From Bacillus kwashiorkori (GTDB lineage: Bacteria; Bacillota; Bacilli; Bacillales; Caldibacillaceae), in the NCBI RefSeq assembly GCF_001375515.1, contig NZ_CTDX01000015.1, positions 62,001 through 126,000 of the forward strand: a stretch of 64,000 nucleotides of DNA. Reading direction: 5' to 3'. Both the position numbers and the translations under genes were made by a program. The notes under the pieces are model-generated. The model saw only the letters and a program-made list of their open reading frames with translations. It was not told the origin of the DNA and did no database searches. Position 1 is the stretch's first letter, and each line of letters opens with the position of its first letter. Below are positions 29,416-63,607 of the stretch, in pieces.

Positions 29416-30217
29416 TGGGAATTATTCAAGATAAAAACTTTGTCTATCCCACTTAATTCAAAAAAAACGGTAATTTAATCAAGATTAATAATGTAACAGT
29501 TGAACTTACTTTCAAAACAATTCACACAATTACAGTTGTATAAAAGTAATAGAACAAAAAATCTCAAAAATAAGTCAATACATCCAAAATGTAATGATTA
29601 CGATACAGATTCTCTCTTTTTTATGCAAAAAGGGTAAAAAATCCATCCTTAATGCACCGCAAAAAACTTATTACTGGCTTTTTCTCTTTTGCCATTTCCG
29701 GAAATAGTAATTTCCCAACTCACCCAGGGCTGTGCTCGTTTAATTTATCCACCTTCACCTTCACAATATTGTCAGACCCCGATTAAGATAGCATTCAATT
29801 TAAATAAATCCAAAAATTGCGCTATTATGTAAAAAATTCCGATTAGTTTATTTGTTTTAGCTATTTAATATGATCCTTATTAAAGCGCTTATCCTTTGAA
29901 AATTCAATATAAAAAGCAAGGGGATATAATGAAGTCTCTATTTAGGCAACTAAGGTGGAAATAACATTATAGACAGATAAAAGGGAATTTTGCCATTTTG
30001 CTAGAGGAAATCTGAAACAAACAGAAATTTTTAGATAAAAACTAACAATCCCTATCGAACAAAACATATAGGAAAAATGTTTATCTTAAAACGAAAATAA
30101 AGAGAGAAAAATATCTTTTATAGAAAAAAGTTTTTGGTCATATTGTTTCTATCCTTCCTTTAGGTTATATGATAAAATTACTTTAATTATATAAAACGTT
30201 TGGAAAGGGGCCCTCTG
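29416..30217. other. Long AT-rich gene-free interval
   Basis: About 800 bases with no ORF carrying a ribosome site on either strand. It includes many A/T tracts. A few short minus-strand open stretches (near 29720-29790) look faintly coding and may be gene decay. A promoter for the gene at 30218 should lie near its right end. Confidence 0.5.
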
Positions 30218-31273
30218 TTGAAGAAATTTTTCACACCGAAACGGATTATCATTGGATTAGTATTCATTGCAATCATTGCGCTCTTATATTTTCACTCCGC
30301 TGCATTTATGCCCTTTATTTTAGCATTGTTCACTGCCTTTGTGCTAGAACCGTTAATCAATTTAGTCATTCGCATATTTAAGCTAAAAAAGAGGTTTCCA
30401 GCCGTAGTAATAGTTTTTATTATGTTTATTTTGTTTTTAGCAATACTGCTATATTTAACCATTACACGCTTAATTAATGAAACAATTCGGTTTGTTGAAC
30501 GAATTCCTGGCTATTTTGTTGAAATAACGGATTATTCAGAGGAAATAATCATTCGTTTCAATGAAACGGTTGCTAACTTACCAGCAGTCGTAATTGATGA
30601 AATTGAAGAGCTCAATACTTCGTTAATTACTTGGGCTACCAATATGGCACAGGATGCATTGGCCATGTTGGCTGGTTGGGCCCAAGCAATTCCAAATGCT
30701 GTAGTTGTAACGATTATTTATTTAATTGCGTTGTTTTTATTTAGTCTCGATTTACCGAAATATAAAGACAGTTTCTTTAACCTTTTCCATGAAGAAAACG
30801 CGAAAAAAGTACGATATATGTTACAAAGATCGACACGTTTCTTTACAGGATTTTTTAAAGCACAATTTTTAGTTAGTGTAATCATTTTTATTGTCAGTTA
30901 TATCGGACTAATGATTATCACCCCTAAAAATGCGCTAATTATGTCGTTAGTAATTTGGATAATTGATTTTATTCCATTCATCGGTTCTATCGCAGTACTA
31001 GCGCCATGGGGTTTATTTCATTTAATCAGCGGAGATATGGAACTTGCCGTTGGCTTATTTATTTTAGCGGGTATTCTTCTTATCATTAGAAGAACCGTTG
31101 AGCCTAAAGTGATGGGGGATCAAATTGGATTACCAACATTACCTACACTAGCAGGGCTATGGATAGGACTGTATTTTTTAGGTATTATCGGTTTGATTAT
31201 TGGGCCGCTTACGATTATTGCAATCTATTCAGCTAAAGAGGCCGGATTAATTAAATTGGATTTTAAAATATAA
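30218..31273 (+). CDS. AI-2E-type transporter, YtvI-like permease
   Basis: A 351-residue integral membrane protein of the AI-2E/TerC-like exporter superfamily (COG0628). TTG 30218 with GGAAAGGGG is preferred; TTG 30200 lies in front of that site. Eight helices in the usual 2+1+5 layout flank a soluble segment (about 75-150). The C-terminal signature DFIPFIGS...EPKVMGDQIGLPTLPTLAGLWIGLYFLGIIGLIIGPL is typical. In Bacilli the closest named type is the sporulation membrane protein YtvI, but the exact role is inference. Confidence 0.85.
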   Translation: MKKFFTPKRIIIGLVFIAIIALLYFHSAAFMPFILALFTAFVLEPLINLVIRIFKLKKRFPAVVIVFIMFILFLAILLYLTITRLINETIRFVERIPGYFVEITDYSEEIIIRFNETVANLPAVVIDEIEELNTSLITWATNMAQDALAMLAGWAQAIPNAVVVTIIYLIALFLFSLDLPKYKDSFFNLFHEENAKKVRYMLQRSTRFFTGFFKAQFLVSVIIFIVSYIGLMIITPKNALIMSLVIWIIDFIPFIGSIAVLAPWGLFHLISGDMELAVGLFILAGILLIIRRTVEPKVMGDQIGLPTLPTLAGLWIGLYFLGIIGLIIGPLTIIAIYSAKEAGLIKLDFKI

Positions 31274-31290
31274 TAGGGTAAATTACTGAG

Positions 31291-31333
31291 AAAATAGTGT
31301 CGTCTGAAGGTAACAGATCACACTATTTTTTTT
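31291..31333 (+). terminator. Intrinsic terminator
   Basis: AAAATAGTGT pairs with ACACTATTTT around a 19-base loop and is followed by a T run. It ends the permease gene. Confidence 0.85.
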
Positions 31334-31573
31334 ATCACAGCACATATCTTTAACTTTGACGAAATTAAAATGTTAATAATGAATAAAAAGTGGAAACATC
31401 GCGTTAATTATGAAATGGGCGAAACTAAGTGAATTATATCCCGTACGAACTAGTAGTAGATAAACTTATTATTATGAAACTTTTCTTAAAAATAATCGTA
31501 CGGATGTAAGAGAAGATACATGAAGAAAGTTTTTGCAAAACGTTATTTAGGACATAACAGGGAGAGATGTATT

Positions 31574-32800
31574 GTGATTACTATACAGGGGAAGGCAACT
31601 GAAGCAGTTATTCATTCTAACAACCCACAAGAAGCTGCGATCAAACAAATTGAGGAATTATGTCATCAAGACTTTTTAAAAGATACGAAAATACGAATTA
31701 TGCCGGATTACCATGCTGGAAAAGGCTGTGTAATTGGCACAACGATAAAATTAAAAGATAAAGTTGTGCCAAACCTCGTCGGGGTCGATGTTGGTTGTGG
31801 TGTGTTAACAGTGAAACTAAAAGATAAAAAAATTGACTTTCATACACTTGACCAAGTTATCCGTCAATTCGTTCCAAGTGGTATCGATATTCATACTGAG
31901 GAAAGTGCTAATCAAATTAAAACAGAATACCCCGTTCCAGAACTTTTTAAAGCAAGTATTTTAAGTGAAAACAAGAGTCTATTAAGCTTAGGGACTCTTG
32001 GTGGTGGCAATCATTTTATTGAAGTATCCGAAGATTCATATGGATATCATTATTTGACGATTCATACTGGAAGTCGCTACGTTGGCTCAAAAATCGCCAA
32101 CTACTACCAAAAGTTGGCTATTGCTAATCATCGCAGGCAAGATTTAACGGAACATATTGATCGATTAAAGAGAGAGAACCGTCATAATGAAATCCAAGCA
32201 TTTATTGAATCTTATAAAGGACAACATCCAGTTATTCCTGATGACCTCGCATATTTAGAGGGTGATGGTTTTGAGAACTATATTTACGATATGAAACTTG
32301 CACAAAGTTATGCAGTGGCAAATCGTACAGAAATAGCTAGAAAAATTTTGGAGAAGATGCAACTTACAGAATTGGATCGGTTTGACACGATCCATAATTA
32401 TATCGATACAGATGCAATGATCTTAAGAAAAGGAGCCGTTTCTGCGAAAAAAGGTGAAAGGCTGATTATTCCTATTAATATGCGCGATGGCTCAATCCTT
32501 GCTAAAGGAAAAGGCAATCCAGAGTGGAATTATTCTGCTCCTCATGGGGCGGGGCGCGTATTGAGTCGAACAAAAGCGATGCAAACGCTCAGCATGGAAG
32601 AGTTTCACCAAGCAATGGAAGGAATTTACACTACTTCGGTAATGAAAGATACGCTAGACGAAGCACCCATGGCCTATAAGCCAATGGCAGAAATCATGGA
32701 AACGGTAGAGGAAACAGTGGAGATACAAGAATTTATCAAACCAGTCTATAATTTTAAAGCAAGTGAAGCAGTTCCGAAATGGATGCGTAGGAAAAAATAG
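31574..32800 (+). CDS. rtcB: RtcB family RNA-splicing ligase
   Basis: A 408-residue homologue of RtcB, the GTP/Mn2+-dependent RNA ligase that joins 2',3'-cyclic phosphate or 3'-phosphate ends to 5'-OH. GTG 31574 after AGGGAGAG gives the family-like start MITIQGKATEAVI; ATG 31520 would add 18 atypical residues. Metal and catalytic motifs visible are MPDYHAGKGCVIG, VGVDVGCG (Cys ligand), LGGGNHFIE, IHTGSR and YSAPHGAGR with the His that carries GMP. Length fits the shorter bacterial RtcB2-like group. No archease gene is adjacent. Confidence 0.92.
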   Translation: MITIQGKATEAVIHSNNPQEAAIKQIEELCHQDFLKDTKIRIMPDYHAGKGCVIGTTIKLKDKVVPNLVGVDVGCGVLTVKLKDKKIDFHTLDQVIRQFVPSGIDIHTEESANQIKTEYPVPELFKASILSENKSLLSLGTLGGGNHFIEVSEDSYGYHYLTIHTGSRYVGSKIANYYQKLAIANHRRQDLTEHIDRLKRENRHNEIQAFIESYKGQHPVIPDDLAYLEGDGFENYIYDMKLAQSYAVANRTEIARKILEKMQLTELDRFDTIHNYIDTDAMILRKGAVSAKKGERLIIPINMRDGSILAKGKGNPEWNYSAPHGAGRVLSRTKAMQTLSMEEFHQAMEGIYTTSVMKDTLDEAPMAYKPMAEIMETVEETVEIQEFIKPVYNFKASEAVPKWMRRKK

Positions 32801-32851
32801 GGACTAAATTTTCTAAAGAAGTATTCGAATCTTTTTTTTGGAGGGGTGTTT

Positions 32852-33358
32852 ATGTCCAACAACTATCAGAGGCCGAAACTAAAAATTCCGAAAACAACGA
32901 GTGAAAAACTTTGGGACATTGTTGGACTTAGTATTTTTCTAAGCTCCGTCATCTTCTTAATTTTCGTATGGAATCAGCTACCAGATAAAGTTCCAGCACA
33001 TTACAATTTTATAGGAGAAATCGATCGTTGGGGGTCGAAATGGGAATTGATTCTTTCACCAAGCATCAGTCTTTTCATGCTTGTTTTTTTACAAATATTA
33101 GAGAGATTCCCAGAAACCCACAATTATCCAGCGCGACTAAATGATTCAAACGTAAAAGAGTTTTATTTACACAGTAGGAAGTTTCTAAATTTACTCAAAA
33201 ACTTAAGTCTAGTATTGCTGTCACTCACTTTTTATGAATCAGTATTTATTGCTCTACAATGGTGGAATGGCTTTGGACCGTGGTTTCTCCCGATTACGAT
33301 AATTGTGTTAGTCGTTGTTATCGTGAATGGTATTTTACAGCAGAGGAAAATAAGGTGA
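32852..33358 (+). CDS. DUF1648-domain membrane protein
   Basis: A 168-residue protein with four helices. The region between helices 1 and 2 carries the DUF1648 signature (LPDKVPAHYNFIGEIDRWGSK), found in small Firmicute membrane proteins and near SdpI-type immunity proteins. ATG 32852 follows GGAGGGG. It lies 51 bases after rtcB and may be co-transcribed, without an obvious functional link. Confidence 0.8.
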   Translation: MSNNYQRPKLKIPKTTSEKLWDIVGLSIFLSSVIFLIFVWNQLPDKVPAHYNFIGEIDRWGSKWELILSPSISLFMLVFLQILERFPETHNYPARLNDSNVKEFYLHSRKFLNLLKNLSLVLLSLTFYESVFIALQWWNGFGPWFLPITIIVLVVVIVNGILQQRKIR

Positions 33359-33736
33359 ATTGAATTCTTATCTAAAGATTGTTTGGAATGAGTGTGTCAA
33401 TTTGTGCAAAAAATAAACAGGCACGAAAACTTTTCTCATAATGAATTTAAGCTGGTTGTCTCCATTGATAGGCCGAAGACTCTAAGTTTTCAGTGGGAAT
33501 ATTTTTGCTATAAAAAATGTCCGTTAGTTGACTTTTTTGGTAATTAGCTGTTATTTAGTTTTTGGATTGAAACGTATGTTCTTATATGGTATAATTTTTT
33601 TGATTAATTTATTTCTGGAAGAAAGAGGTGGACATTAACAAGTTGTATAAAGGCGATATGTAAAAATATCCAAATTTTATGCGCTAGTTTCCATTTACAA
33701 TTAAACAACTTATAATTGTGAGGGGTGGTGAACGAA
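33359..33736. other. Gene-free interval
   Basis: About 380 bases, AT-rich. GTG 33628 behind AGAAAGAG opens an 11-codon frame only (M-D-I-N-K-L-Y-K-G-D-M), perhaps a leader or gene relic. A promoter for the coiled-coil gene is expected here. Nothing else seen. Confidence 0.4.
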
Positions 33737-34078
33737 TTGGATAAAATTTATGAATTACTACTGCATATGCAGAAGGAACAACAAGAGTTTAAGGAAGCAG
33801 TACTTGGCAAATTCGTTGAAATCGATGAAAGATTCGATAAGATTGATGCAAAATTCGTGGAAGTCGATGAAAGATTCGATAAGATTGATGCAAAATTCGT
33901 GGAAGTTGATGAAAGATTCGATGAAGTCAATGGAAATTACAAGAATATGGAAAAACTAATTAAAGGTATAGGTAACCAATTCGAATACACCAATCGATTA
34001 AGAATGCAGGATATTGACTTTCTTTCAGAAAAAATTACGAAACTGGAAAAAGAGCTATACTTGCTAAAAAATAAATAA
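33737..34078 (+). CDS. Coiled-coil protein with internal 14-residue repeats
   Basis: A 113-residue, highly charged protein. TTG 33737 follows AGGGGTGG by 8 bases and gives MDKIYELLLHMQKEQQEF, a common Bacillus start for this protein type. The centre repeats F-V-E-(I/V)-D-E-R-F-D-K-I-D-A-K about two and a half times, and the DNA shows it as a 42-base tandem repeat from 33812 to about 33930. The whole protein is predicted to be one long coiled coil with no catalytic residues. The repeat can vary in number by slippage. Role unknown. Confidence 0.7.
   Translation: MDKIYELLLHMQKEQQEFKEAVLGKFVEIDERFDKIDAKFVEVDERFDKIDAKFVEVDERFDEVNGNYKNMEKLIKGIGNQFEYTNRLRMQDIDFLSEKITKLEKELYLLKNK
33812..33930 (+). 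repeat. 42-base tandem repeat inside the coiled-coil gene
   Basis: Units begin at 33812, 33854 and 33896 (period exactly 42) with TTCGTNGAANTCGATGAAAG; the third unit is incomplete. It keeps the reading frame and encodes 14 residues (two heptads) per unit. Confidence 0.85.
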
Positions 34079-34740
34079 TTGGAAGACTGGGCATATTAAG
34101 CCCTTTTTTGTATTTTTTTTAACAAAAACACTTCATTACCACAATATCATTGTTCTTAAATATCCACTTACTTTTAAAAAAGATTAGTTCATTTAGTCAA
34201 AGACTACTATTCAAACAATGAATATTAACGTATTCACCCCCCGCATTTATAAGACCACAGAAAAATTAGCTCATCTAATGTGAACTAAATCGCATTCTAA
34301 TTATTAAATCTAGATTACACTTAAGTTTAAGTGAATACTCGAAAAAAGCACAATGTCATTCGTTATCGCTTTCGGCATAATCCGCATGAATTTTCATTAC
34401 TATTCAAAACATTTACAAAAAAAACGAATGCCAAACTATTTAGTTAACCTATTTACATCTTTATTTTAAATAATTTTTAATATTCACCTTGTGTTAATGT
34501 TGTTAATGGTATATAATAAATTATGTGATAAACATCACAAACTTATTTAAAATCAAAAATGTTTTACAAGAAATCTTTAGGGTAGCCTAAAAAATGAAGG
34601 TCACATGTATCAAAAACATCGTGTGAACTTGGGATCACAGAATTTTCAACACTACATAACAGAAATTAACGTTCGTCTCTTTCCCTGTTCCCAAAGCATG
34701 AATTTACCTTATACATATTATTGGAAAGGAGCAATAAAAA
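34079..34740. other. Intergenic region with terminator and regulatory palindromes
   Basis: About 660 bases without a gene. GGGC (34089-34092) and GCCC (34100-34103) followed by T6 end the coiled-coil gene. CACTTAA-GT-TTAAGTG (34318-34333) is a clean palindrome of unknown use. The CRP/FNR-like box at 34524 and a roughly 200-base leader before the FMN-reductase gene follow. Confidence 0.6.
34489..34539 (+). promoter_or_regulatory. Promoter with CRP/FNR-type palindrome for the FMN-reductase genes
   Basis: TTGTGT (34489-34494), an 18-base spacer and TATAAT (34513-34518) make a plausible sigma-A promoter. TGTGA-TAAACA-TCACA at 34524-34539 is a perfect match to the Gram-positive FNR/CRP palindrome TGTGA-N6-TCACA and shares the core TGAT-N4-ATCA with the boxes at 1934 and 3938. 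It covers the expected start site, so with this promoter it would repress. As an activator it would need a weaker promoter near 34561. The leader to the ATG is about 200 bases long. Confidence 0.6.
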
Positions 34741-35346
34741 ATGAAGAAATTAATTGGTATTGTTGGAACGAATTCCGATAAATCAACGAATCGGATGTTG
34801 CTACAATTTATTCAAAAGCATTTTGCAGATAAAGCAAATATTGAACTTTGTGAAATAAAAGATTTACCTCCATTTAATAAGCCTGAAAATCGGGTAGCTC
34901 CAGCGGAAGTACAGCAACTTTCAGATAAAATTGTAGAAGCGGATGGTGTGATTATTAGTACCCCAGAATATAATCATTCCGTACCAGCTGCATTGAAAAG
35001 CACATTAGAATGGTTTTCTTATACTACGCAACCACTTATTGACAAACCAGTCATGATTACTGGTGCTTCTTACGGCAGACTAGGTTCATCACGGGCGCAA
35101 ACTCATTTGCGACAAATGCTCGATGTTCCAGAACTAAAAGCACGAATTATGCCAGGTTCGGAGTTTTTATTAGGTTTTTCTTTACAAGCTTTTGATGAAA
35201 GTGGCAATTTAACGAATAAAGAAAAGGTAGCAGAACTAGAAGGAATTTTTAATGAATTCCTCCGCTTTGTGGAGATTACTAATCAATTAGTTAACAACAA
35301 TCCCCAACATACAAACCGAAGCAAGTTTTCATGGGAGGAAAATTAA
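34741..35346 (+). CDS. NAD(P)H-dependent FMN reductase-like flavoprotein
   Basis: A 201-residue flavodoxin-like protein of the NADPH-dependent FMN reductase family (azoreductase/SsuE-like). The N-terminal phosphate loop is GIVGTNSDKSTNRMLL and the signature TPEYNHSVPAALKSTLEW is present, followed by GASYGRLGSSRAQTHLRQML. It is a close paralogue of the N-terminal domain encoded by the next gene, 20 bases downstream, so the two probably form a heteromeric or sequential pair. Start ATG 34741 follows GGAAAGGAG. Cytoplasmic. Electron acceptor unknown; fumarate reductase-type roles are not indicated. Confidence 0.88.
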   Translation: MKKLIGIVGTNSDKSTNRMLLQFIQKHFADKANIELCEIKDLPPFNKPENRVAPAEVQQLSDKIVEADGVIISTPEYNHSVPAALKSTLEWFSYTTQPLIDKPVMITGASYGRLGSSRAQTHLRQMLDVPELKARIMPGSEFLLGFSLQAFDESGNLTNKEKVAELEGIFNEFLRFVEITNQLVNNNPQHTNRSKFSWEEN

Positions 35347-35366
35347 ATCGTTAGGAGGATATTTCG

Positions 35367-36557
35367 ATGAAAATCGTTGGAATCGTTGGATCAAATGCTG
35401 ATTTTTCCTATAACCGTCTTTTATTAGAGTACATTGCGAAAAAGTTTAAAAAACTAGTGGAAATCGAAGTGCTAGACATTAAAGATGTACCACTGTTTAA
35501 CCAGTCAAATGACCAAACAAATAGTGAACCTATCCAATATTTAAATAAAAAGATTTTAGGAGCTGACGGGGTCATTATTGCGACACCAGAATACAATCAT
35601 ACTATTCCATCTGCTTTACAAAGCGTAATTGAATGGTTATCATTTAAAATTCATCCACTAGATGGGAAACCGGTTATGATTGTCGGGGCTTCCTATGATG
35701 TGCAAGGTTCTTCTCGCTCCCAATTACATTTACGCCAAATTTTAGATGCACCTGGAGTTAACGCAGTTGTTATGCCGGGTAACGAATTTTTATTAGGTGA
35801 AGTCCATAAAGCTTTTGATGAGGAAGGCAATTTAAAAGATGGACAAACGGTGCAATTTTTAGAAGTTTGTTTGAAAAAATTCATCCGTTTCATCAATGTT
35901 GTGAATGTCTTGAACGCACCAGAGGGCATGAAGGATTTATCAAGCACGGAAGATTTACACGCTACTGGCAAAATTGATACCACTATTGAAGGTGTCGACA
36001 TGTTAGCCGATGACTGGGTAGAGCAAGCAGCAGAAAAAACAGGTGCAGTCGAAGGGAAAACATATGTCAAACTGGACCGAGGTATTTTAACCGTAGATCA
36101 ACTTAATTATTTTCTCAATTCCATGCCAGCGGAATTAACTTATGCGGATAGCAATAACCAATTCCTATACTATAATCATAAATATGATGCGGAAGAAATG
36201 TTAGCATCGCGGCGACCAGAACAAGTAGGGAGTCCGCTCGCAAACTGCCACCCAGAAAGAGTGTATAGTGGTGTAGCTTGGGTTATTCAGCAATTACGTA
36301 CTGGCAAACAAGAGGTAGTACGAACTCATGTGCCTACGCACGGACCAGATAAGTTCGTTGTTCACAGTTATCAAGCAATTCGTGATAAAGAGGGAAATTA
36401 TCTCGGAATAAATGAATATGTACAAGATATTAAACCAATTATTGACTGGTACTTAGAACAGACAGGTCAACAATTAGTTGGTGGTGGCGTCGATGCCGTC
36501 TCTGGTGCAACATCTAAGGTGGACACCGTATCTGGGGCCACGGTAAAAGATAATTAA
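35367..36557 (+). CDS. FMN reductase-PAS fusion with tandem ApbE flavinylation motifs
   Basis: A 396-residue multidomain protein. Residues 1 to about 185 are an FMN-reductase domain ([32 protein letters not shown]). After a linker (186-238), residues about 240-356 form a PAS domain of the PAS_10/DUF438 kind, with the characteristic NCHPERV (293-299) and [11 protein letters not shown]. The last 25 residues carry D376-A-V-S-G-A-T382 and D386-T-V-S-G-A-T392. Both are perfect forms of D-x-x-(S/T)-G-A-T, whose final Thr receives FMN from ApbE. No signal peptide, so the protein is cytoplasmic. The next gene is an ApbE without signal. Predicted: a redox enzyme or sensor with up to two covalent FMN groups plus one bound FMN. 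A terminator follows at 36567. Confidence 0.85.
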
Positions 36558-36566
36558 GGAATTATG

Positions 36567-36592
36567 AAAAGAGGTCGGCCTGGCCTCTTTTT
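36567..36592 (+). terminator. Intrinsic terminator between the reductase and apbE genes
   Basis: AAAAGAGG (36567-36574) pairs with CCTCTTTT (36584-36591) around a 9-base loop. The apbE gene downstream therefore probably has its own promoter or depends on read-through. Confidence 0.75.
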
Positions 36593-36846
36593 CGTCTTTG
36601 CAATAGGTTTTGCTCATTTGGTACGATATTGCTTGAAAAAGTTCTATATCCAAATTATTCATCAAAACGATAAATGACAAAAAATGATGATCCACAAGTA
36701 ACTATGGTTGAGAATTTTTTTAGCAAACAGTCAATTGTTTTCGCTTGCAACTATGTATAACAACTACTTTTTCATAGAACAGTCTGATACCATTGATCAA
36801 TTTTCAAAAGTTATCTGGCTCTGGACGAAAGGGTGATACATTCACA

Positions 36847-37782
36847 ATGCAAAGTCGTGAAGTTCATATGATGGGAACGATTATTCAATTATCGGTTCAA
36901 CATAAATATGCCCGTTTTGTTTTAGAAGAACTTATTTTACGCTTGAAGGAATACGAACAACGGTTTAGTGCCCATGATCCTCAATCAGAATTAATGCAAG
37001 TGAATCGTAATGCAGGGATTCAACCGATAGCGGTACATCCTCAATTATACGAATTAATTAAACTTGGTAAAATACATAGCACTGCATCAAGTAGTATGTT
37101 AAATATTACGATCGGTCCTTTAGTAAAAGCATGGCGGATTGGGTTTCATGATGCCCAAGTTCCAACATCCCAACAGATTCAATCGTTATTGAGTAAAACA
37201 AATGCCAATGATATCATTCTAGATGATAAAAATCAAACCGTTTTTTTAAAACATCGTGGAATGTTTATCGATTTAGGGGCGCTCGCAAAAGGATTTATTG
37301 CGGATCTTCTAATTGATGACTCACAATCAATGGGTGCCGAAGCGGGACTTATAAATTTGGGCGGAAATGTGATGACATATGGGAAGTCTCCCAATCATAA
37401 AGATGGATATTGGCGAATTGGAATTCAACACCCATTCCGACCCCGTGGTAAAAATATAGCGATTTTGCGGGCACTCCACCAGTCTATTGTTACATCAGGA
37501 ATTTATGAAAGAAAATTTACGTATAACAATGAAACTTATCATCATATTTTAGACCCTGCTACTGGATATCCAGTGAAATCGGAAATTGCTGGATTAACGA
37601 TCGTATCAAAAAAATCGGTAGACGGTGAGATATGGACGACCCGTCTATTTGGCCAACAACCACGGATGATCATTGATACATTAAACCAACTAGAAGACAT
37701 CGCCGGAATTGTTGTCACGACAACTGGAGAGCTTTATTATTCGGAGTCTTTGAAACCATATTTACTTGAGACATCCATATGA
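36847..37782 (+). CDS. apbE: FAD:protein FMN transferase, predicted cytoplasmic
   Basis: ApbE transfers FMN from FAD to a Thr/Ser in D-x-x-(S/T)-G-A-T sequences. ATG 36847 (MQSREVHMMGTIIQ), with AAAGGG about 12 bases upstream, fits the family start; TTG 36793 is possible but has no site. Neither form has a signal peptide or lipobox. Family blocks are MGTI, NITIGPLVKAWRIG, DLGALAKGFIAD, INLGGNV, TSGIYER, HHILDPATGYPV and a Mg-site block SVDGEIWTTRLFG, which is unusual (commonly D-A-L-S-T-A). The catalytic Asp and Thr positions seem kept. The substrate is very likely the tagged reductase encoded upstream. Confidence 0.9.
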   Translation: MQSREVHMMGTIIQLSVQHKYARFVLEELILRLKEYEQRFSAHDPQSELMQVNRNAGIQPIAVHPQLYELIKLGKIHSTASSSMLNITIGPLVKAWRIGFHDAQVPTSQQIQSLLSKTNANDIILDDKNQTVFLKHRGMFIDLGALAKGFIADLLIDDSQSMGAEAGLINLGGNVMTYGKSPNHKDGYWRIGIQHPFRPRGKNIAILRALHQSIVTSGIYERKFTYNNETYHHILDPATGYPVKSEIAGLTIVSKKSVDGEIWTTRLFGQQPRMIIDTLNQLEDIAGIVVTTTGELYYSESLKPYLLETSI

Positions 37783-37818
37783 TTTATTGATTTTTATTCA
37801 GCAGAAAATCACCAGATA

Positions 37819-37866
37819 GAAAACGATAAAAAAGTCGCCATATTCAGCGACTATTTTATCGTTTTC
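37819..37866. terminator. Bidirectional terminator between apbE and a convergent gene
   Basis: GAAAACGATAAA-AA-AGTCGC and GCGACT-ATTTTATCGTTTTC form an almost perfect stem of about 19 pairs around an 8-base loop, with A/T tracts on both sides. It suits convergent genes. Confidence 0.9.
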
Positions 37867-37877
37867 TCGATCTTTCA

Positions 37878-38513
37878 TCATTGATTATAATCATTGTCCC
37901 TTAGATGCGGTTCGGTAGGTTTTAGAGCAAATAAAAGTAAAATAATAAAAACAGCAAGGTTACCAATGAGCGATACACGAAACCCAGGAAAAATAATCGG
38001 AATGAAAAAAGGATATAAAAGAAATGCACCAATTGACGCTATTAAATGATTCGTAATTTGATCTACCCTTTCATCTAAACTATATCTTCGACTACGGTAT
38101 CGGTAAAGTACTACGAGCTTGAGTGAAAACTTGTTAAGTAAATCCGGCAGTCTAGTTCTTCTGAAATAAATAATAGTAATATAAAACATGATTACATAAA
38201 TTACTCCGTAAGAACAAGCGAATATTAGTAGAGCCGAATCCTCAAAGTCGAAAGGGTTTAATGGTTTTCCAGCAACATAGAAGTGAGATTTACCTAAAAA
38301 GAAGGGATGGGTATAAATTGCAATGCCTGCTAGCACACTATTAAAAACAATAAATAGTAAGAATAGTAGTATCTTCAAAACATGGATAAACAATACTCCT
38401 GTAATTCGGAATATTGTTGTTAGTATTTTTGAACGGCTTATAATGGTTGCAATCACTGCAAAGATAATGAATACGATAAAAAATATGCCATAATTAATAA
38501 ATAGCTCACCCAA
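37878..38513 (-). CDS. Hypothetical membrane protein
   Basis: A 211-residue protein with about five helices and a basic cytoplasmic loop (RYRSRRYSLDERVDQI). TTG 38513 is taken as start because GGGGGAG lies six bases before it; the longer frame starts ahead of this site. No motif of a known family. Monocistronic, convergent with apbE. Confidence 0.6.
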   Translation of the reverse strand: MGELFINYGIFFIVFIIFAVIATIISRSKILTTIFRITGVLFIHVLKILLFLLFIVFNSVLAGIAIYTHPFFLGKSHFYVAGKPLNPFDFEDSALLIFACSYGVIYVIMFYITIIYFRRTRLPDLLNKFSLKLVVLYRYRSRRYSLDERVDQITNHLIASIGAFLLYPFFIPIIFPGFRVSLIGNLAVFIILLLFALKPTEPHLRDNDYNQ

Positions 38514-38619
38514 ACAAAACTCCCCCTTATCCCTTTGCATCAACTATACGTTTGAAGGGGGAGTTTGATTCACCATTATTTAGGAAACTTCACTTATCCT
38601 AACATTTAAATAGTTATCT

Positions 38620-39351
38620 CTATCGTCTAATCTCAACGAAAAACGTATCCGGCCCAGTTGGTACAATGCTGCCACCTTTTGGTTCGAGGCTGGCTTTTAT
38701 TTCGATAAAGTTTTGAACATCCATACCTTGAATGAACATTCTTGATGAGCCGTTAATGGTTGGAATAATTGCCCCAAGGACTTCATTGTCTTGAAAAATA
38801 ATCCATAATTGGTAGTCGTAATTATTCATCTCAACTAAGCCATCCACTTCAAGCAACAGCTCTCTTGTTGCATCGTTAATCCAAATATTCCCTTGTAACG
38901 GCGGATCAGATTGCATAGAATGTTGGACTGGAATAATGTGCAACTGTTCCGTGTTCGGTTTTTTTAGAAAATTAGTAGCTTGAATTTCGTCATTATGTGT
39001 AATCAATAATTTTCGGTCGGAATCTTTCAAATCATTGAGGAAAACAAAGGCGATAATAAAAAAACAAACTACGACTGCCACACTTAATTGCCAAACTCCC
39101 CTAATTGAGAATTGCCACTTACGATTCTGCCTCTTTTCAACCGATTGCCAAATTTGTTCTCTTAATTCGTCATTAAGATACCCATCGCCCTTCCCTTCGA
39201 CATTTAACACCTGCTGCCATTCTCGCCATTTTTCTTGACATGTCTTACAGTCTTGTAAATGTTCTTGTACTTTATGAGAGTCAAACTTTGGTAAGTTCCC
39301 TAATGAATAATCAATCAACTGTTCATCTGTTAAGTGCCGAAATGTTGTCAT
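38620..39351 (-). CDS. Anti-sigma factor (zinc-finger ZAS plus RskA-type domain)
   Basis: A 243-residue membrane protein. The N-terminal domain binds the sigma factor and contains HLTDEQLIDYSLG and H-x3-C-x2-C (HLQDCKTC), the ZAS motif. One helix (VAVVVCFFIIAFVF, about residues 88-107) crosses the membrane. The outside part is an anti-sigma-K/RskA domain with the NYDYQLWIIFQDNEVLGAI block. The ATG overlaps the stop of the sigma gene (39348-39351), as expected for a coupled pair. It should hold the sigma factor inactive until an envelope signal is received. Confidence 0.9.
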   Translation of the reverse strand: MTTFRHLTDEQLIDYSLGNLPKFDSHKVQEHLQDCKTCQEKWREWQQVLNVEGKGDGYLNDELREQIWQSVEKRQNRKWQFSIRGVWQLSVAVVVCFFIIAFVFLNDLKDSDRKLLITHNDEIQATNFLKKPNTEQLHIIPVQHSMQSDPPLQGNIWINDATRELLLEVDGLVEMNNYDYQLWIIFQDNEVLGAIIPTINGSSRMFIQGMDVQNFIEIKASLEPKGGSIVPTGPDTFFVEIRR

Positions 39352-39923
39352 TTGCTTTCACTCCTATCCGCCTTTACCCAATGAAGTAACGTTTTTTGTT
39401 TGCGTAAATTATTTAACCCGTAACGGATGAGTGATTTTACCGAGCCGAGCGGTCTATGCATCCTACCAGCAATTTCTTTATGTGTCTCCCCGTTGAAATA
39501 GGCTCGAATAATTGCTTCTCGCTGGTCAAAGGGAATAGCATTTAATGCATCTATCAATATGTAGTTTTGTAGTTCAGAGAAAAATTGCACATCGGCACCT
39601 TTTTCTTTTTGTTTTAATAGTAATTCTAAGCGATTCACTAATAGTGGTTTCTTTTTTCGCAGTCGATCAATGGAGCGGCTTTTTGTTTTCACGGCAAGCC
39701 ATGCTTTGACACTACCTTTTTTCGAATCATATTGTTTATATTTTTGGAAAACCTCCAAAAATACATCTTGGGCAATATCCTCCGCCTCAGTTTCATTTTG
39801 AACGATATGAAGGGCAATTTGATATACGAATGAAATGTGTTTTTCGTAAAAAGTATCGAAAGCTTGCCGTGAACCGTGGGCAATTTCATCTAAAAGACGA
39901 ATACTTTCCTGATTGTCATCCAT
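39348..39923 (-). CDS. ECF-type RNA polymerase sigma factor
   Basis: A 191-residue sigma-70 family group IV protein. ATG 39923 follows AGGAGG by 7 bases. Region 2 includes FYEKHISFVYQIALHIVQNETEAEDIAQDVFLEVF with the typical AEDIxQDVF, and region 4 has LNAIPFDQREAIIRAYFNGETHKEIAGRMHRPLGSVKSLIRYGLNNLR. It is the first gene of the sigma/anti-sigma operon. The regulon may include the divergent NEW3/ABC operon, but no matching -35/-10 pair was confidently found. Confidence 0.93.
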   Translation of the reverse strand: MDDNQESIRLLDEIAHGSRQAFDTFYEKHISFVYQIALHIVQNETEAEDIAQDVFLEVFQKYKQYDSKKGSVKAWLAVKTKSRSIDRLRKKKPLLVNRLELLLKQKEKGADVQFFSELQNYILIDALNAIPFDQREAIIRAYFNGETHKEIAGRMHRPLGSVKSLIRYGLNNLRKQKTLLHWVKADRSESK

Positions 39924-40045
39924 CACAATTCCTCCTAATCACCCTTTTCACTATAAATTTTATTACATTTTTCTAAAAAAACAAATCCAAAACAAAGCAG
40001 CCTCCGTATCAAAAATGAGAACAAAAAATGAAGGAGGAACAAATC

Positions 40046-41203
40046 ATGCTAAAAAGAAAACTTTTCACTATCTTTGTAAGTACCATTTTATTAGCTGCCT
40101 TCGTTCCGGTTCACTACGTTTATGCACTGGAAGGTATTACATTATTCACTCCTCACACCGGTGTCACGGCAAGTCCTGGGGAGACGATCCATTACAATGT
40201 TGATATTATTAATGAAGGTTCAGCGATTCAAAGTATGTCCTTTATGATGGAGGATTTGCCAAAAGGATGGAAATACAAAATTACATCTGATGGATCAGAA
40301 ATTCGTCAGCTATCTGTAAAAGGAAACAGTGAAGCATCGATTTCAGCAGATATTACCGTCCCGTTGGATGCAAAAAAAGGAGACTACTCATTTAAAATGG
40401 TTGCTAAAGGAGATGGCAATTCATCTTCCGTAACATTGTCTGTATCAGTTACAAAACAAGGATCCATTGAAACAGAATTGACGAGTAATCAAACAAACTT
40501 AGAAGGTCATGCTGATTCTACTTTTACTTATACTGTTAGCCTAAATAATAAAACTACCGAAACACAAAATTATGCGTTAAGTAGTAAAGTGGAAGATGGT
40601 TGGAGTGTCCGCTTCTTATCTGAAGGGAATTCCGTCACATCTATATCATTAGAACCTAATACTTCAAAGGAGTTAACTGTAGAGGTAAAGCCACCACAAA
40701 ACGTGAAAGAGGGAACTTATAATATTCCTATAACAGCTGCAACAGCTAATTCTAATTCAGATTTAACGTTAGAAGCAGTTGTGACAGGTTCCTTTGGTAT
40801 CGAAATTGGCACACCATCTGGAGTATTAAGTGATGAAATAACAGCAGGAAAGGAGAAAACAATTGAATTAGAAGTAAAAAATACGGGAACTGCTCCGTTA
40901 AAAGATATTACCCTCTCTGCCAATACTCCTTCCAGTTGGGAGGTAACATTTAATAGTGAAGAAATAGCGGAACTGGCGGCAGGTAAAACCAAAAAAGTAA
41001 AAGCAACGATCACAGCTCCCGATGAGGCAATTACTGGGGATTATGTTGTTACTTTTAAAGCGACAACCGCAGAAGTTTCAGCAGATGCAACGTTTCGAAT
41101 GTCCGTTGAAACGTCTACTGTTTGGGGCTTAATTGCCGTTTTCATCATCATAGCTGTTGTGGTAGGTCTTTACTTGATTACGAGAAAATTTGGGAGGAGA
41201 TAA
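40046..41203 (+). CDS. Exported NEW3-domain membrane-anchored protein
   Basis: A 385-residue protein. ATG 40046 follows AAGGAGG; the track of an earlier ATG overlaps that site. A signal peptide (MLKRKLFTIFVSTILLAAFVPVHYVYA) is followed by three similar beta-sandwich modules of the NEW3/CARDB kind, each with a GD(Y)xxx(F/I)(K/T) strand and an LxPGxxxxxxxxI-like element. A C-terminal helix (VWGLIAVFIIIAVVVGLYLI) and basic tail anchor it. It probably displays extracytoplasmic binding modules for the adjacent ABC transporter. The next gene starts 2 bases after its stop. Confidence 0.85.
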   Translation: MLKRKLFTIFVSTILLAAFVPVHYVYALEGITLFTPHTGVTASPGETIHYNVDIINEGSAIQSMSFMMEDLPKGWKYKITSDGSEIRQLSVKGNSEASISADITVPLDAKKGDYSFKMVAKGDGNSSSVTLSVSVTKQGSIETELTSNQTNLEGHADSTFTYTVSLNNKTTETQNYALSSKVEDGWSVRFLSEGNSVTSISLEPNTSKELTVEVKPPQNVKEGTYNIPITAATANSNSDLTLEAVVTGSFGIEIGTPSGVLSDEITAGKEKTIELEVKNTGTAPLKDITLSANTPSSWEVTFNSEEIAELAAGKTKKVKATITAPDEAITGDYVVTFKATTAEVSADATFRMSVETSTVWGLIAVFIIIAVVVGLYLITRKFGRR

Positions 41204-41205
41204 AC

Positions 41206-42162
41206 GTGAATGAAGCAATTATTGAGCTAAAAGAGGTGACGAAGCAATATGATAACCACCTTGCTGTCAACGACTTATCTCTTTCCATAAATAAAGGTGA
41301 AATATTTGGTTTACTCGGTCCGAATGGGGCCGGAAAGACAACGACCATTTTAATGATGCTCGGATTAAGTGAACCAACATCTGGCACTGTTTTAGTTTCC
41401 AGTATTAACTCGACAACAAACCCTATTGAAGTAAAAAAGAAAGTTGGTTATTTGCCTGATAATGTTGGATTTTATACAAATATGACTGGCTTAGAAAACT
41501 TACTCTTTACCGCGGGGCTTAACGGCATTTCAAAAAAACTGGCAGAAGAACGGGCGAAATTGTTATTAGAGAAAGTCGGTTTAACTTATGCCGCACATAA
41601 AAAAACGGGAACTTATTCGCGAGGGATGAAACAGCGACTTGGCCTAGCGGATGTGTTAATGAAAAATCCAGAGATAATTATATTAGACGAACCGACACTA
41701 GGGATTGACCCAGAAGGTGTAAGGGATTTTTTGCAACTGATCCGTGAGTTAAATGAAAAGGATGATATTACGGTACTATTAAGTTCACACCATCTCCATC
41801 AAGTGCAACAAATATGTGATCGAGTAGGAATTTTTGTTAACGGGAAATTGTTAGCACAAGGAAATATTCAACAGTTGAGTAAAGAATTATTCGCCTCAGA
41901 ATCAATCGTAACAGAGGTAATCGCGAAACCTTTAAGTGAAGAGTTGGTAAAAAGTCTGCAAAACATGACTGGAGTTCAGCGGATTGAAATGGTAAGTGAT
42001 GATCAAGTAATAATTCATAGTGAGGAAGATATTTCCGGACAAGTTAGTCGCCTAATTATCCAATCTGGTAGTGAACTTTATCAGTTATATCGGAAAAACT
42101 TCGGATTGGACGAAATTTATCATCGTTATTTTGAAGGGCGTGAAGTAAATGAAGCTCGCTAA
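41206..42162 (+). CDS. ABC transporter ATP-binding protein
   Basis: A 318-residue ABC-2-type ATPase. GTG 41206 with GGGAGGAG is the natural start; an earlier ATG lies in the previous gene. Walker A is GPNGAGKTT, the signature YSRGMKQRLGLADVL, Walker B IIILDEPTLGIDP and the switch His is in SSHHLHQ. A C-terminal domain of about 90 residues is typical of drug- or lantibiotic-type exporters. Its last 14 bases overlap the permease gene. Confidence 0.92.
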   Translation: MNEAIIELKEVTKQYDNHLAVNDLSLSINKGEIFGLLGPNGAGKTTTILMMLGLSEPTSGTVLVSSINSTTNPIEVKKKVGYLPDNVGFYTNMTGLENLLFTAGLNGISKKLAEERAKLLLEKVGLTYAAHKKTGTYSRGMKQRLGLADVLMKNPEIIILDEPTLGIDPEGVRDFLQLIRELNEKDDITVLLSSHHLHQVQQICDRVGIFVNGKLLAQGNIQQLSKELFASESIVTEVIAKPLSEELVKSLQNMTGVQRIEMVSDDQVIIHSEEDISGQVSRLIIQSGSELYQLYRKNFGLDEIYHRYFEGREVNEAR

Positions 42163-43192
42163 TATTCAAAATAAATGGTTTAAGCAAAAAGACATCGAGC
42201 GTTCAGAAGTAGTCCGAGAAAAGGATACGAAAAAGCGCAATGTGTTTTGGGTGTTTGTTAGTAAGGAGATTACCGACTATTTATCTAGTTGGCGAATTAT
42301 TATTTTACTAGCCATCCTTTTACTAACATGTATTGGCTCTCTATACACTGCAGTAACAACAATTTCGGATGCGCTTGATGCTTATAAAGATGCTAGTCAA
42401 ATTGGACGAAACTCGTATTTGTTTTTACAAATATTTACAATTTCTGATGGTAGTTTACCGTCGTTTGTTTCTTTCGTTAGCTTTTTAGGGCCGCTGCTCG
42501 GAATTGCCCTCGGTTTTGATGCGATAAACGGAGAAAGAGGCCGGGGAACGTTAAGTCGGTTATTAGCCCAACCGATCCCGAGAGATTATGTTATTAATGC
42601 GAAGTTTGTTGCAGCATTAATTATTAATGTCATACTATTTTTTGCTTTAGGCTTATTAGTTATGGCATTTGGAATCCTTATGTTAGGGATTACCCCAAGT
42701 TTGGATGAGTTTTTACGAGTGATGAGTTTTATTGGGTTAATCATCGTTTATATCGCTTTCTGGCTAAATTTAGCTATCTTGTTTTCTGTTATTTTCAAAC
42801 AACAAGCAACATCTGCCTTGTCAACGATTGCTATTTGGCTATTTTACAATGTGTTTTTCTCTATTATTGTCAATCTATTTACGAAATCGTATTTAACGAA
42901 TGTAGCGAGTGAAGGAGAATATGTGAATAGAGTGAATGCGATATTAAATGTTTACCGGTTTTCACCAAACTATTTATTCCAAGAGATGACAACCGTATTG
43001 TTATCGCCAACAACGAGAACGACTGGCTTAATGACGATGGAGCAAGTAGTTGGTTCCATTGCGAGTCCGTTGAAGTTGCAAGCAAGTCTATCGCTCATCT
43101 GGCCACAAATTACTGGATTAATAGCAGCAACTTTCATCTGTTTTACAATCGCTTATGTAACCTTTACCCGACAAGAGATTAGAGCGAATTAA
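42149..43192 (+). CDS. ABC-2 type permease
   Basis: A 347-residue permease with six helices and a large first extracytoplasmic loop. The block GFDAINGERGRGTLSRLLAQPIPRDYVINAKF is the ABC2_membrane_2/NosY-like signature. It overlaps the ATPase gene by 14 bases, implying coupling. With the NEW3 protein it forms a three-gene exporter or maintenance system next to, and divergent from, the sigma/anti-sigma pair. Confidence 0.9.
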   Translation: MKLANIQNKWFKQKDIERSEVVREKDTKKRNVFWVFVSKEITDYLSSWRIIILLAILLLTCIGSLYTAVTTISDALDAYKDASQIGRNSYLFLQIFTISDGSLPSFVSFVSFLGPLLGIALGFDAINGERGRGTLSRLLAQPIPRDYVINAKFVAALIINVILFFALGLLVMAFGILMLGITPSLDEFLRVMSFIGLIIVYIAFWLNLAILFSVIFKQQATSALSTIAIWLFYNVFFSIIVNLFTKSYLTNVASEGEYVNRVNAILNVYRFSPNYLFQEMTTVLLSPTTRTTGLMTMEQVVGSIASPLKLQASLSLIWPQITGLIAATFICFTIAYVTFTRQEIRAN

Positions 43193-43215
43193 AAAATGGT
43201 TATATAAACAAATTT

Positions 43216-43264
43216 AATCCACCATCATTTTGTTTGATTAACAAAAATAGATGGTGGATTTTGT
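43216..43264 (+). terminator. Intrinsic terminator of the NEW3/ABC operon
   Basis: AATCCACCATC (43216-43226) pairs with GATGGTGGATT (43250-43260) and is followed by TTTTG. Confidence 0.85.
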
Positions 43265-43357
43265 CATTCTCACTTTGTAAGTGGTATATATCAAGGAAAC
43301 TTAAGCATAGTTTCTATTTTTGAGCAGTGTATATTCCATTACTTTTATAAAAACACT

Positions 43358-43388
43358 ATTTACATTAACGTAACGTAAAGGTGTAAAG
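43358..43388 (+). promoter_or_regulatory. MerR-type promoter with 19-base spacer
   Basis: TTTACA (43358-43363) and TAAAGT (43383-43388) are separated by 19 bases, longer than the usual 17, as in promoters controlled by MerR-family activators. Palindromic sequence in the spacer (ACATTAACGTAACGT) and outer arms TTTACA/TGTAAA fit autoregulation by the gene at 43413. Confidence 0.7.
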
Positions 43389-43412
43389 TAGTGTTGTCAG
43401 GAGGTGAAACAA

Positions 43413-44177
43413 ATGGAATACACTGTTCAACAGTTAGCAAAATTAGCGGGAATAACAGGCCGAACATTAAGGTATTATGATGAAATTGGCCTTCTTAAGC
43501 CGGCGAGAGTTAATTCATCGGGCTATCGAATTTATGGGGAAAAAGAAATCGATCAGCTGCAACAAATATTATTTTTCCGAGCATTAGAGGTGGATCTCGA
43601 TACAATAAAAAAAATAATGCAGTCACCTGAATTCGATATGATAACTGCATTGAAGAGTCATCGGGAAGAGCTCCTGACAAAACGCAGGCAGATCGATTTA
43701 TTAATAGAAAATGTGGAAAAAACAATTGCTATGAAGGGGGGAAAGGTAACGATGAGTAATCAAGAGAAGTTTTCAGGATTCACAAAACAAATGATTGAGG
43801 AAAATGAGAAGAAATTTGGGAAAGAAATTAGATCAAAATATGGAAATAAAACTGTTGATAAATCGAATGAAAAACTAATGGGAATGACAGAGGAACAGTA
43901 TCTTGTGGCGAAAAAGCTAGAGGAACAAGTTCTTGAAACGCTAAACGAAGCATTTGTAACTGGAGATCCTGCAAGTGAAATTGCTCAAAAAGCAGCGGAC
44001 CTGCATAGGCAATGGCTTAGTTTTTATTGGAGTCAATATACAAAGGAGGCTCACGCTGGCGTTGCTCAAATGTATGTGGCTGACGAGCGGTTTTCCGCCT
44101 ATTATGAAAGGGAACATAAAGGTGCAGCAAAATTTCTACATGATGCAATTATGATTTATACAGGAGTGGATAAATAG
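43413..44177 (+). CDS. MerR-family regulator with TipAS domain
   Basis: A 254-residue TipA-like regulator. ATG 43413 follows AGGAGGTGA; GTG 43404 lies inside that site. Residues 1-70 are a MerR winged helix (YTVQQLAKLAGITGRTLRYYDEIGLLKPARVNSSGYRIY), followed by a coiled coil and a TipAS domain (about 110-254) with Y-x-x-x-x-R-E-H-K-G-A-A-K-F, which binds thiopeptide-like ligands in TipA. The elongated-spacer promoter upstream suggests autoactivation. No drug-efflux target is adjacent. Confidence 0.93.
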   Translation: MEYTVQQLAKLAGITGRTLRYYDEIGLLKPARVNSSGYRIYGEKEIDQLQQILFFRALEVDLDTIKKIMQSPEFDMITALKSHREELLTKRRQIDLLIENVEKTIAMKGGKVTMSNQEKFSGFTKQMIEENEKKFGKEIRSKYGNKTVDKSNEKLMGMTEEQYLVAKKLEEQVLETLNEAFVTGDPASEIAQKAADLHRQWLSFYWSQYTKEAHAGVAQMYVADERFSAYYEREHKGAAKFLHDAIMIYTGVDK

Positions 44178-62545: not shown

Positions 62546-63607
62546 CTAATAGTTGACTACTTCGAATTCGCTGTTTGTTACTTCGAATGTTTCTTTTAAT
62601 CCAGATGTTAAGTAAATTTTTTTATCTTTACTGACGAATATTGCTTCGACATCGTCCATCGTTTCGACAAATTTCAATCCACCATCAATTCCTTTTGAAA
62701 AAATCGCTGTTGATAAGGCGTCCCCATCCATTGATTTTTTCGTGATTACTGAAACACCGGCAATATCATTATTAAATGGATATCCATCTTCTGGGTTAAG
62801 TAAATGGTGATATGTTTCCTCATCGACTTTTAAATAACGTTCATAAATTCCTGATGTAACGATGGATTTATTTGATTCGCGGATTACTCCGATCACTTCT
62901 CCTCTTGATAAGAAGGGGTCTTGAATTCCTACACCCCATTCTTCTCCACTAGATGGACTTTTTCCCATTACGAAAATATTCCCACCGAGATCAATAATCG
63001 CCGTAGTAACACCGTTTTTCTTTAATAATTCTACTACTTCGTCCGTGATAAATCCTTTCGCAATAGCACCGAGGTCTAATTGCATATTTTCCTTATTTAG
63101 GAAAACAGTTTGTTCTTCTTTATTCATCTTCACTTGTTTATAGTCAATTAGTGGCAATACGTCATTTATTTCCGATTGGGATGGTTTCCGAGCATCCGGA
63201 AAACCAATACGCCATAAATTTGTTAACGGTCCGATAGAAATATCAAAAGATCCAGCTGATTTTTCACTGTAGTCTAATCCTGTTTCAATAAGTTCAAAGA
63301 TGTCCTTTGATACTTTCACCGGTTGCTTTCCAGCTTGATCATTAATTTTATCAACTTCCGAACTCGCTTCATTAACGGTAATGGAATTTGCTAATGTTTC
63401 CATTCGTTTAAAAGCAGCGTCTAGGACAGTTTCTTTATCTTTGTCATAAATTTTTAAATTTACGATTGTTCCCATCATAAATTCCGTTCTTTTATATGGA
63501 TTAGTTAACAAGTTTTCGTTTGTATTTTTATTTTGTCCTTGATTGCACCCAGCTAAGTTAATGAAGAGAAGTATGATAATGACAAAAGCTAATTTTTTTT
63601 TCACCAA
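62546..63607 (-). CDS. apbE: Lipoprotein FAD:protein FMN transferase
   Basis: A 353-residue ApbE/FmnB. The N-terminal signal ends in the lipobox LAGC (Cys about 21), so it is anchored outside the membrane. Family blocks MMGTIVNLKIYD, FDISIGPLTNLWRIG, LDLGAIAKGFITD, IIDLGGNIFVMG, TSGIYER, HHLLNPEDGYP and MDGDALSTAIFSKG are all present, including the Mg site D-A-L-S-T. It should flavinylate the FMN-binding protein encoded just upstream (63773). It differs from the signal-less ApbE at 36847. Confidence 0.95.
   Translation of the reverse strand: MVKKKLAFVIIILLFINLAGCNQGQNKNTNENLLTNPYKRTEFMMGTIVNLKIYDKDKETVLDAAFKRMETLANSITVNEASSEVDKINDQAGKQPVKVSKDIFELIETGLDYSEKSAGSFDISIGPLTNLWRIGFPDARKPSQSEINDVLPLIDYKQVKMNKEEQTVFLNKENMQLDLGAIAKGFITDEVVELLKKNGVTTAIIDLGGNIFVMGKSPSSGEEWGVGIQDPFLSRGEVIGVIRESNKSIVTSGIYERYLKVDEETYHHLLNPEDGYPFNNDIAGVSVITKKSMDGDALSTAIFSKGIDGGLKFVETMDDVEAIFVSKDKKIYLTSGLKETFEVTNSEFEVVNY

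Follow-up and report, generated by a model that had tools for sequence, protein, structure and literature searches.

The locus and its features

Covalent flavinylation by ApbE (FAD:protein FMN transferase) is directed by the motif D-x-x-[S/T]-G-A-[S/T] (PMC12052999). In the 2021 flavinylation survey proteins without signal peptides were excluded, and genomes with orphan apbE genes were said to remain. The window analysed here, a stretch of DNA of 64,000 nucleotides, holds a system of three same-strand genes coding for an FMN_red protein, an FMN_red-PAS_10 protein with a tagged tail, and a signal-less ApbE. The question which it raises is what an ApbE without a signal peptide might act upon, and what use a soluble flavin reductase could make of flavin placed on a bare tail. 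The features of the locus are as follows.

34524..34539, strand not given: CRP/FNR-type box, TGTGATAAACATCACA, a perfect match to TGTGA-N6-TCACA, about 210 bp 5' of the first gene
34741..35346, + strand: FMN_red protein, 201 aa (PF03358, E 3.4e-36), the probable heterodimer partner, FRedA-like
35367..36557, + strand: FMN_red-PAS_10-tag protein, 396 aa (open reading frame and domain matches)
35367..35807, + strand: FMN_red domain, residues 1-147 (PF03358, E 2.4e-37)
36102..36434, + strand: PAS_10 domain, residues 246-356 (PF13596, E 2.8e-28)
36492..36512, + strand: flavinylation tag 1, DAVSGAT (D376-T382), predicted acceptor T382; fits D-x-x-[S/T]-G-A-[S/T]
36522..36542, + strand: flavinylation tag 2, DTVSGAT (D386-T392), predicted acceptor T392; fits the same motif
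36566..36592, + strand: terminator-like hairpin between the reductase gene and apbE (11-bp stem, 5-nt loop, T-rich 3' arm, -16.2 kcal/mol, z -2.1)
36847..37782, + strand: signal-less ApbE, 311 aa from ATG (PF02424, E 6.4e-73); alternative start TTG 36793

The upstream FMN_red protein (34741-35346) is 51% identical to the FMN_red domain of the fusion at 35367-36557, and a second FMN_red gene was found to adjoin the tagged gene in all 80 loci compared. The signal-less ApbE lay close to this gene pair in 63 of the 80, downstream of it in Bacillaceae and upstream in most Lactobacillales. The hairpin at 36566-36592 is absent from the output of the consensus scan; its position between the reductase gene and apbE means that both genes need not share one transcript here, and the apbE of the window may have its own promoter. 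No FMN riboswitch or other Rfam element was found in window positions 30000-44000.

The tagged reductase

The predicted structure of the 35367-36557 product has two folded parts, residues 1-183 and 217-366, and a disordered tail at 373-396 (pLDDT about 30). The closest solved folds were E. coli ChrR/YieF 3svl and 1rtt for the FMN_red domain, and 2qkp, the C-terminal domain of SMU_1151c, for the PAS_10 domain. In the 396-aa protein no match was obtained to PF04205 (FMN_bind) at E values up to 1, nor to PF00890 (FAD_binding_2), in agreement with an earlier, sequence-only reading of this DNA in which FMN_red and PAS domains were followed by a short tag and no whole FMN_bind domain. The same reading had described two tandem tags with a 10-residue period and candidate acceptors T382 and T392, a spacing and numbering borne out by the translation of the open reading frame; the upstream FMN_red gene and the hairpin had gone unremarked in it. 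The tags agree in 6 of 7 residues, yet synonymous differences separate their codons at 5 positions, and no tandem repeat was detected at the DNA level. The duplication is therefore old and selected, and a recent DNA duplication of the tag was rejected.

Conservation of and constraint on the tags

Homologues were gathered from 79 loci of public genomes and, in addition, from the class sample described below, a set in which some species are nearly identical and the entry of the window itself is counted. Each full-length FMN_red-PAS homologue found (about 100) keeps between one and four tags joined by linkers that vary, and the only sequence of the list whose tail lacks a tag (L129) belongs to another, HcrB-like kind of protein. 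The mean number of motifs per tail was 2.65, versus 0.02 in shuffled tails. The pattern D..[ST]GA[ST] was also met in 40 of 1154 other ORFs (352,801 aa), and most of these look like ApbE targets themselves, because the loci had been chosen around ApbE. A 398-genome phylum sample gave two family members at E 1e-30, both in Bacilli, and none outside that class.

Pairwise codon pairs were compared among the window and 22 Bacillaceae-type sequences (23 in total). Synonymous and non-synonymous pairs stood at 1925:170 in the tags, 16831:6600 in FMN_red, 13747:6307 in PAS and 1025:863 in the remaining tail, which makes the tag codons the most strongly constrained of the whole protein, with the folded domains ranking between them and the remaining tail. 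In tag 1, D376, S379, G380, A381 and T382 are invariant in the 23 sequences despite 2-4 synonymous codons each, and in tag 2 D386, A391 and T392 are invariant. Since the tail is predicted to be disordered and is yet more constrained at its tags than the enzyme domains, recognition of the tag is the best explanation, and a chance origin of the motif was rejected on the shuffled-tail comparison together with the codon constraint. Loss of the tags with retention of ApbE, which the sequence-only reading had named as evidence against its proposal, was seen in no full-length family member.

The signal-less ApbE and its predicted target

Inspection of the N-terminus of the window ApbE revealed no hydrophobic stretch or lipobox ahead of the domain, as had been noted before. 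The ATG at 36847 (MQSREVHMMGT) was preferred over the TTG at 36793 as a start because homologues begin to align there. The nearest solved structure is 7esa, an FmnB-type ApbE (E 9e-67). In the tree, lipoprotein ApbEs form a separate clade (support 100/99), and where they have DGDALST the cytosolic ApbEs mostly have DGEIW..RLF (window 37585-37660), a difference by which cytosolic flavin transferases of Bacilli can be recognised. Of the FmnB triad S257, H273 and D301, the Ser and His are kept and the Asp301 position is occupied by Glu in the window ApbE and most cytosolic relatives, which, judged on sequence, is a conservative change in these predicted cytosolic enzymes.

Co-occurrence was assessed in a class sample of 399 genomes, in which signal-less ApbEs were called by match score and length. 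A signal-less ApbE was present in all 31 genomes with a tagged protein, and 12 other genomes have such an ApbE without the protein (Fisher p 1e-36 by genome and 3e-12 by genus, both inflated by relatedness). In 20 further genomes, mostly without apbE adjoining the locus, ApbE was found in 20 of 20, with signal-less copies among those read. A correlated loss of ApbE and tail in one genome (G904) was dropped, both genes being frameshifted there; G844 also has scattered frameshifts, and sequence error is thus likely to lie behind those of G904. In five of the 12 genomes with ApbE and no tagged protein (G333, G318, G393, G172, G234) the ApbE adjoins an HcrB- or OYE-type FMN_bind reductase. Four near-complete genomes with both ApbE and tagged protein (G369, G307, G068, G087) have no FMN_bind domain anywhere, so the tagged protein is the only candidate ApbE target found in them, and the proposal that ApbE acts only on other FMN_bind targets was rejected for these four. 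The tagged protein is a candidate substrate for the signal-less ApbE of genomes that lack an FMN_bind protein, a group left out by the signal-peptide requirement of the 2021 survey.

The homologue search and co-occurrence analysis which the sequence-only reading had suggested as a check thus favoured it, and its proposal that the tags are substrate sites of the signal-less ApbE is strongly supported by their conservation, the codon constraint, the co-occurrence and the absence of FMN_bind in several genomes. Covalent FMN at T382 and T392, attached by the signal-less ApbE, is accordingly predicted with high confidence; for tagged FMN_red relatives it has been demonstrated by others.

Other arrangements were seen around signal-less ApbEs. 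In genus g82, signal-less ApbEs (L209:6924-8003 / L240 (G409), L245-L250) carry flavinylation motifs at their own C-terminus, for example DTDAGAS with DASSGAS, or DLASGAS, which suggests possible self-flavinylation or an ApbE that serves as its own flavin carrier. Three g82 genomes (G194, G215, G350) have a signal-less ApbE and no fusion; in G215 and G350 small PAS proteins have a degenerate motif, D-x-T-S-G-P-S, at their end, and in G194 no target for the signal-less ApbE was found. Small PAS-like proteins of g82 (L202:15996-16391, L203:3726-4145, L211:5456-6094) end in DVTSGPS, DTTSGPS or DVTSGAS, again in genomes with a signal-less ApbE and no fusion, and the SGPS endings may be decayed tags. 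OYE-FMN_bind-FAD_binding_2 fusions of 1010 aa lie beside signal-less ApbE in two loci (L206:4252-7281, L207:3339-6368) and are apparently another type of cytosolic ApbE target.

Relation to known systems

Huang, Meheust, Barquera and Light (2024) described, in the main text of PMC11334425, ApbE-associated FMN_red proteins with C-terminal motif tails, mostly from Firmicutes. Two Lactococcus members (L. lactis WP_021723379.1 and L. taiwanensis WP_205872264.1) are reported there to be flavinylated by the cognate ApbE, the modification being lost on change of S/T to A. Like the proteins of that account, the window protein joins FMN_red to an unstructured C-terminal extension with one or two motifs (two here) and has apbE adjoining in a Firmicutes genome; unlike them, it has a PAS_10 domain between FMN_red and tags and is preceded by a second FMN_red gene. 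The main text makes no mention of PAS, an H2O2 system or cytosolic ApbE, and its Table S1 may list PAS-bearing members. A terminal seven-residue D-x-x-[S/T]-G-A-[S/T] peptide suffices for ApbE in the engineered Flavin-tag (Tong 2021, as cited in PMC12052999), which is an artificial fusion; the window tags are bare too, but natural and tandem.

The second relative is FRedA/FRedB/LjPAS, the H2O2-forming, NADH-dependent flavin reductase of Lactobacillus johnsonii studied by Valladares et al. in 2015 (PMC4500961). Its heterodimer uses NADH as donor and FMN as acceptor (Km 20 uM, FMN KD 2 uM), and has two FMN sites which form only when two different FMN_red chains pair. Purified FRedA/B works without LjPAS when given free FMN. 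The LjPAS examined was made in E. coli, without the cognate ApbE, and ApbE, covalent flavin and C-terminal motifs find no mention in that paper, in which the FMN_red-PAS fusions Lp2732 and EF1227 were also reported (PMC4500961). The window locus resembles this system in its tandem FMN_red genes and PAS_10 protein, and differs in that its PAS_10 is fused to FMN_red, whereas in L. johnsonii the PAS is a separate gene. FRedA, FRedB and LjPAS of L. johnsonii are reportedly treated in a further paper, by Hertzberger in 2014.

The hydroxycinnamate reductase HcrA/HcrB of Lactiplantibacillus plantarum shares with the window the FMN_red partner and the FMN_red fusion. In HcrB-like loci (FMN_red-FMN_bind-FAD) a flavinylation motif stands near residue 252 of the protein and a signal-less ApbE is encoded close by; the carrier there, however, is a whole FMN_bind domain followed by a FAD_binding_2 reductase domain, and the window protein has neither. 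The cytosolic ApbE of Klebsiella pneumoniae acts, like the one proposed here, on a soluble cytosolic target, but there the target is a fumarate reductase and in the window a flavin reductase with a bare tail (PMC12052999).

The core biochemical idea was thus already published in 2024 for relatives, as the main text of PMC11334425 has it, and the window protein is the PAS-bearing form. The arrangement had been taken for undescribed in the sequence-only reading: this does not hold for a tagged FMN_red beside apbE (main text of PMC11334425) or for FMN_red-PAS fusions (PMC4500961), and the claim holds in part only. What is new is the equation of the tagged, window-type protein with the peroxide-forming flavin reductase system, of which we could not find a description; a joining of the two bodies of work was not found in the open-access literature, and an earlier description elsewhere is possible.

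A proposed built-in flavin acceptor and its alternatives

We consider it probable that the locus encodes a cytosolic, FRedA/FRedB/LjPAS-type NADH:flavin oxidoreductase whose flavin acceptor is built in. With FAD as donor, the signal-less ApbE would load FMN onto T382 and T392 in the disordered tail. By analogy to the L. johnsonii relative, the FMN_red domain would pair with the upstream-encoded FMN_red protein, and the pair would bind FMN non-covalently and take hydride from NADH. Electrons would then pass to the tethered tail FMNs and from there to O2, giving H2O2, or to another acceptor, a transfer to which we give an even chance. The tail FMNs would take the place of freely diffusing FMN as a non-dissociable, swinging acceptor and provide a weakly binding reductase with a higher local concentration of flavin, and, more speculatively, the PAS domain might position or gate the tail. 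HcrB-type sister reductases, which join FMN_red to an FMN_bind domain with a flavinylation site and a FAD domain beside a signal-less ApbE, offer a possible parallel for covalent FMN as a relay after FMN_red. The window protein had been called a three-flavin protein, which would hold for one chain only; since the FMN sites form only on pairing of two FMN_red chains, a heterodimer would hold about four flavins.

Several findings count against a built-in acceptor. None of the lineages among the 80 loci encodes a dedicated electron acceptor close by, FRedA/B is active without LjPAS on free FMN while LjPAS only slowed assembly, and the catalytic Asp (FmnB Asp301) is Glu in the window ApbE and most cytosolic relatives. 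The tags number one to four and track no fixed site count, which also weighs against a role in cofactor retention, in which the tail FMNs would fold back into the ordinary FMN_red dimer sites and fix the catalytic flavin, with no separate mobile acceptor. Retention is how Huang et al. read the Lactococcus FMN_red, with a model that places the motif near the flavin site (main text of PMC11334425); it agrees with the weak FMN binding of the L. johnsonii relative, whose heterodimer purifies with 0.58 FMN per dimer (PMC4500961), and with two tags here for two FMN sites per heterodimer. With a 33-residue linker and a whole PAS domain set between FMN_red and tags here, and with the tags on a separate protein in Lactobacillus, we regard retention as unlikely, if deserving of attention.

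Less probable still is a redox sensor or switch, in which the PAS domain and tethered flavins would respond to oxygen or redox state and tune how the FMN_red heterodimer assembles or how active it is. LjPAS does delay assembly of active FRedA/B, and its gene is oxygen-responsive, but the inhibitory effect is described as modest and is lost as soon as FMN occupies the heterodimer (PMC4500961); and while a CRP/FNR-type box lies upstream of Bacillaceae operons, PAS and tags are fused to the enzyme in most lineages and more than one tag is retained, a pattern better suited to a carrier than to a switch. That the tags are unused here and ApbE serves another cytosolic target, such as a fumarate- or cinnamate-type reductase with FMN_bind, is highly improbable: cytosolic ApbEs do serve such reductases (PMC12052999), and HcrB- and OYE-type ones adjoin signal-less ApbE in several genomes, but the four near-complete genomes named above have tagged protein and no FMN_bind domain, the tags are under strong purifying selection, PAS-less tagged relatives directly adjoin signal-less ApbE, and flavinylation of the two Lactococcus proteins was experimental (main text of PMC11334425).

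The built-in acceptor can be extended to the wider family. That the H2O2-forming NADH-dependent flavin reductase of some lactobacilli and its relatives in Bacilli is covalently flavinylated, with the bare FMN tags of the tail as its true electron acceptor, is a tentative proposal, to which we give slightly less than an even chance. If it is true, LjPAS would be a flavin carrier and not just an inhibitor. What the PAS protein does in peroxide-forming flavin reductases, so far unexplained, can now be tested directly. It is also suggested that flavinylation of cytosolic proteins is common in Bacilli, beyond the fumarate-reductase types.

Rearrangement of the modules

The tags are carried, depending on lineage, by FMN_red, by a free LjPAS-like protein of 28 kDa or by the fusion, and their presence on different modules indicates that they belong to the system and not to one domain. 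In two genomes the PAS protein is free (28.0 kDa in G244, 27.9 kDa in G316) and bears three tags; G244 has its twin FMN_red genes three genes upstream of a signal-less ApbE, elsewhere in the genome than the PAS gene. By size and domains, the G244-type set would correspond to FRedA, FRedB and the LjPAS (28 kDa) of L. johnsonii. The distribution is different in genera g437 and g431, probably Lactococcus and a close relative: FMN_red itself carries one to four tags and is directly followed by apbE, with a separate PAS_10 gene next in two loci; other g437 genomes carry the full fusion (L260-L263). Both LjPAS-bearing genomes also encode a second free PAS protein of 178-182 aa with a single C-terminal tag, DAESGAS (L212:5217-5750, L215:15250-15795).

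Clustering of the neighbours of the 80 loci gave no conserved third enzyme as terminal acceptor in any lineage; it returned only an XRE/TPR-type regulator, and a conserved neighbour enzyme as terminal electron acceptor was rejected. This regulator, an HTH_3 protein that matches TPR weakly, is encoded immediately upstream of apbE in 32 Lactobacillales loci (for example L104:4195-5040). In 10 Lactiplantibacillus-type loci (for example L116:3320-4120) the neighbourhood of the FMN_red genes also includes a Y_phosphatase3-type gene. G244 has, between its FMN_red pair and apbE, a gene equal to it in size and with a similar beginning (L213:7853-8653).

Regulation and a second ApbE

The box at 34524-34539 is the only perfect match to TGTGA-N6-TCACA within the 64-kb window. 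A perfect box was found upstream of 12 of 23 homologous Bacillaceae loci and once elsewhere in 272 kb. A conserved operator of this type suggests that a CRP/FNR-family regulator would control the operon in Bacillaceae, which would then probably respond to oxygen or redox state. Control by Fnr, if true, would point to a role at low oxygen rather than in peroxide formation in the Bacillaceae species.

A second ApbE of the window, at 62546-63607 on the - strand, is a lipoprotein with a LAGC lipobox. It adjoins genes for a UbiA-like prenyltransferase and an ECF transporter, and FMN_bind proteins are encoded near it, just past the window end (G000:C15:125839-132001). The region resembles an extracellular electron transfer cluster, in contrast to the setting of the cytosolic ApbE.
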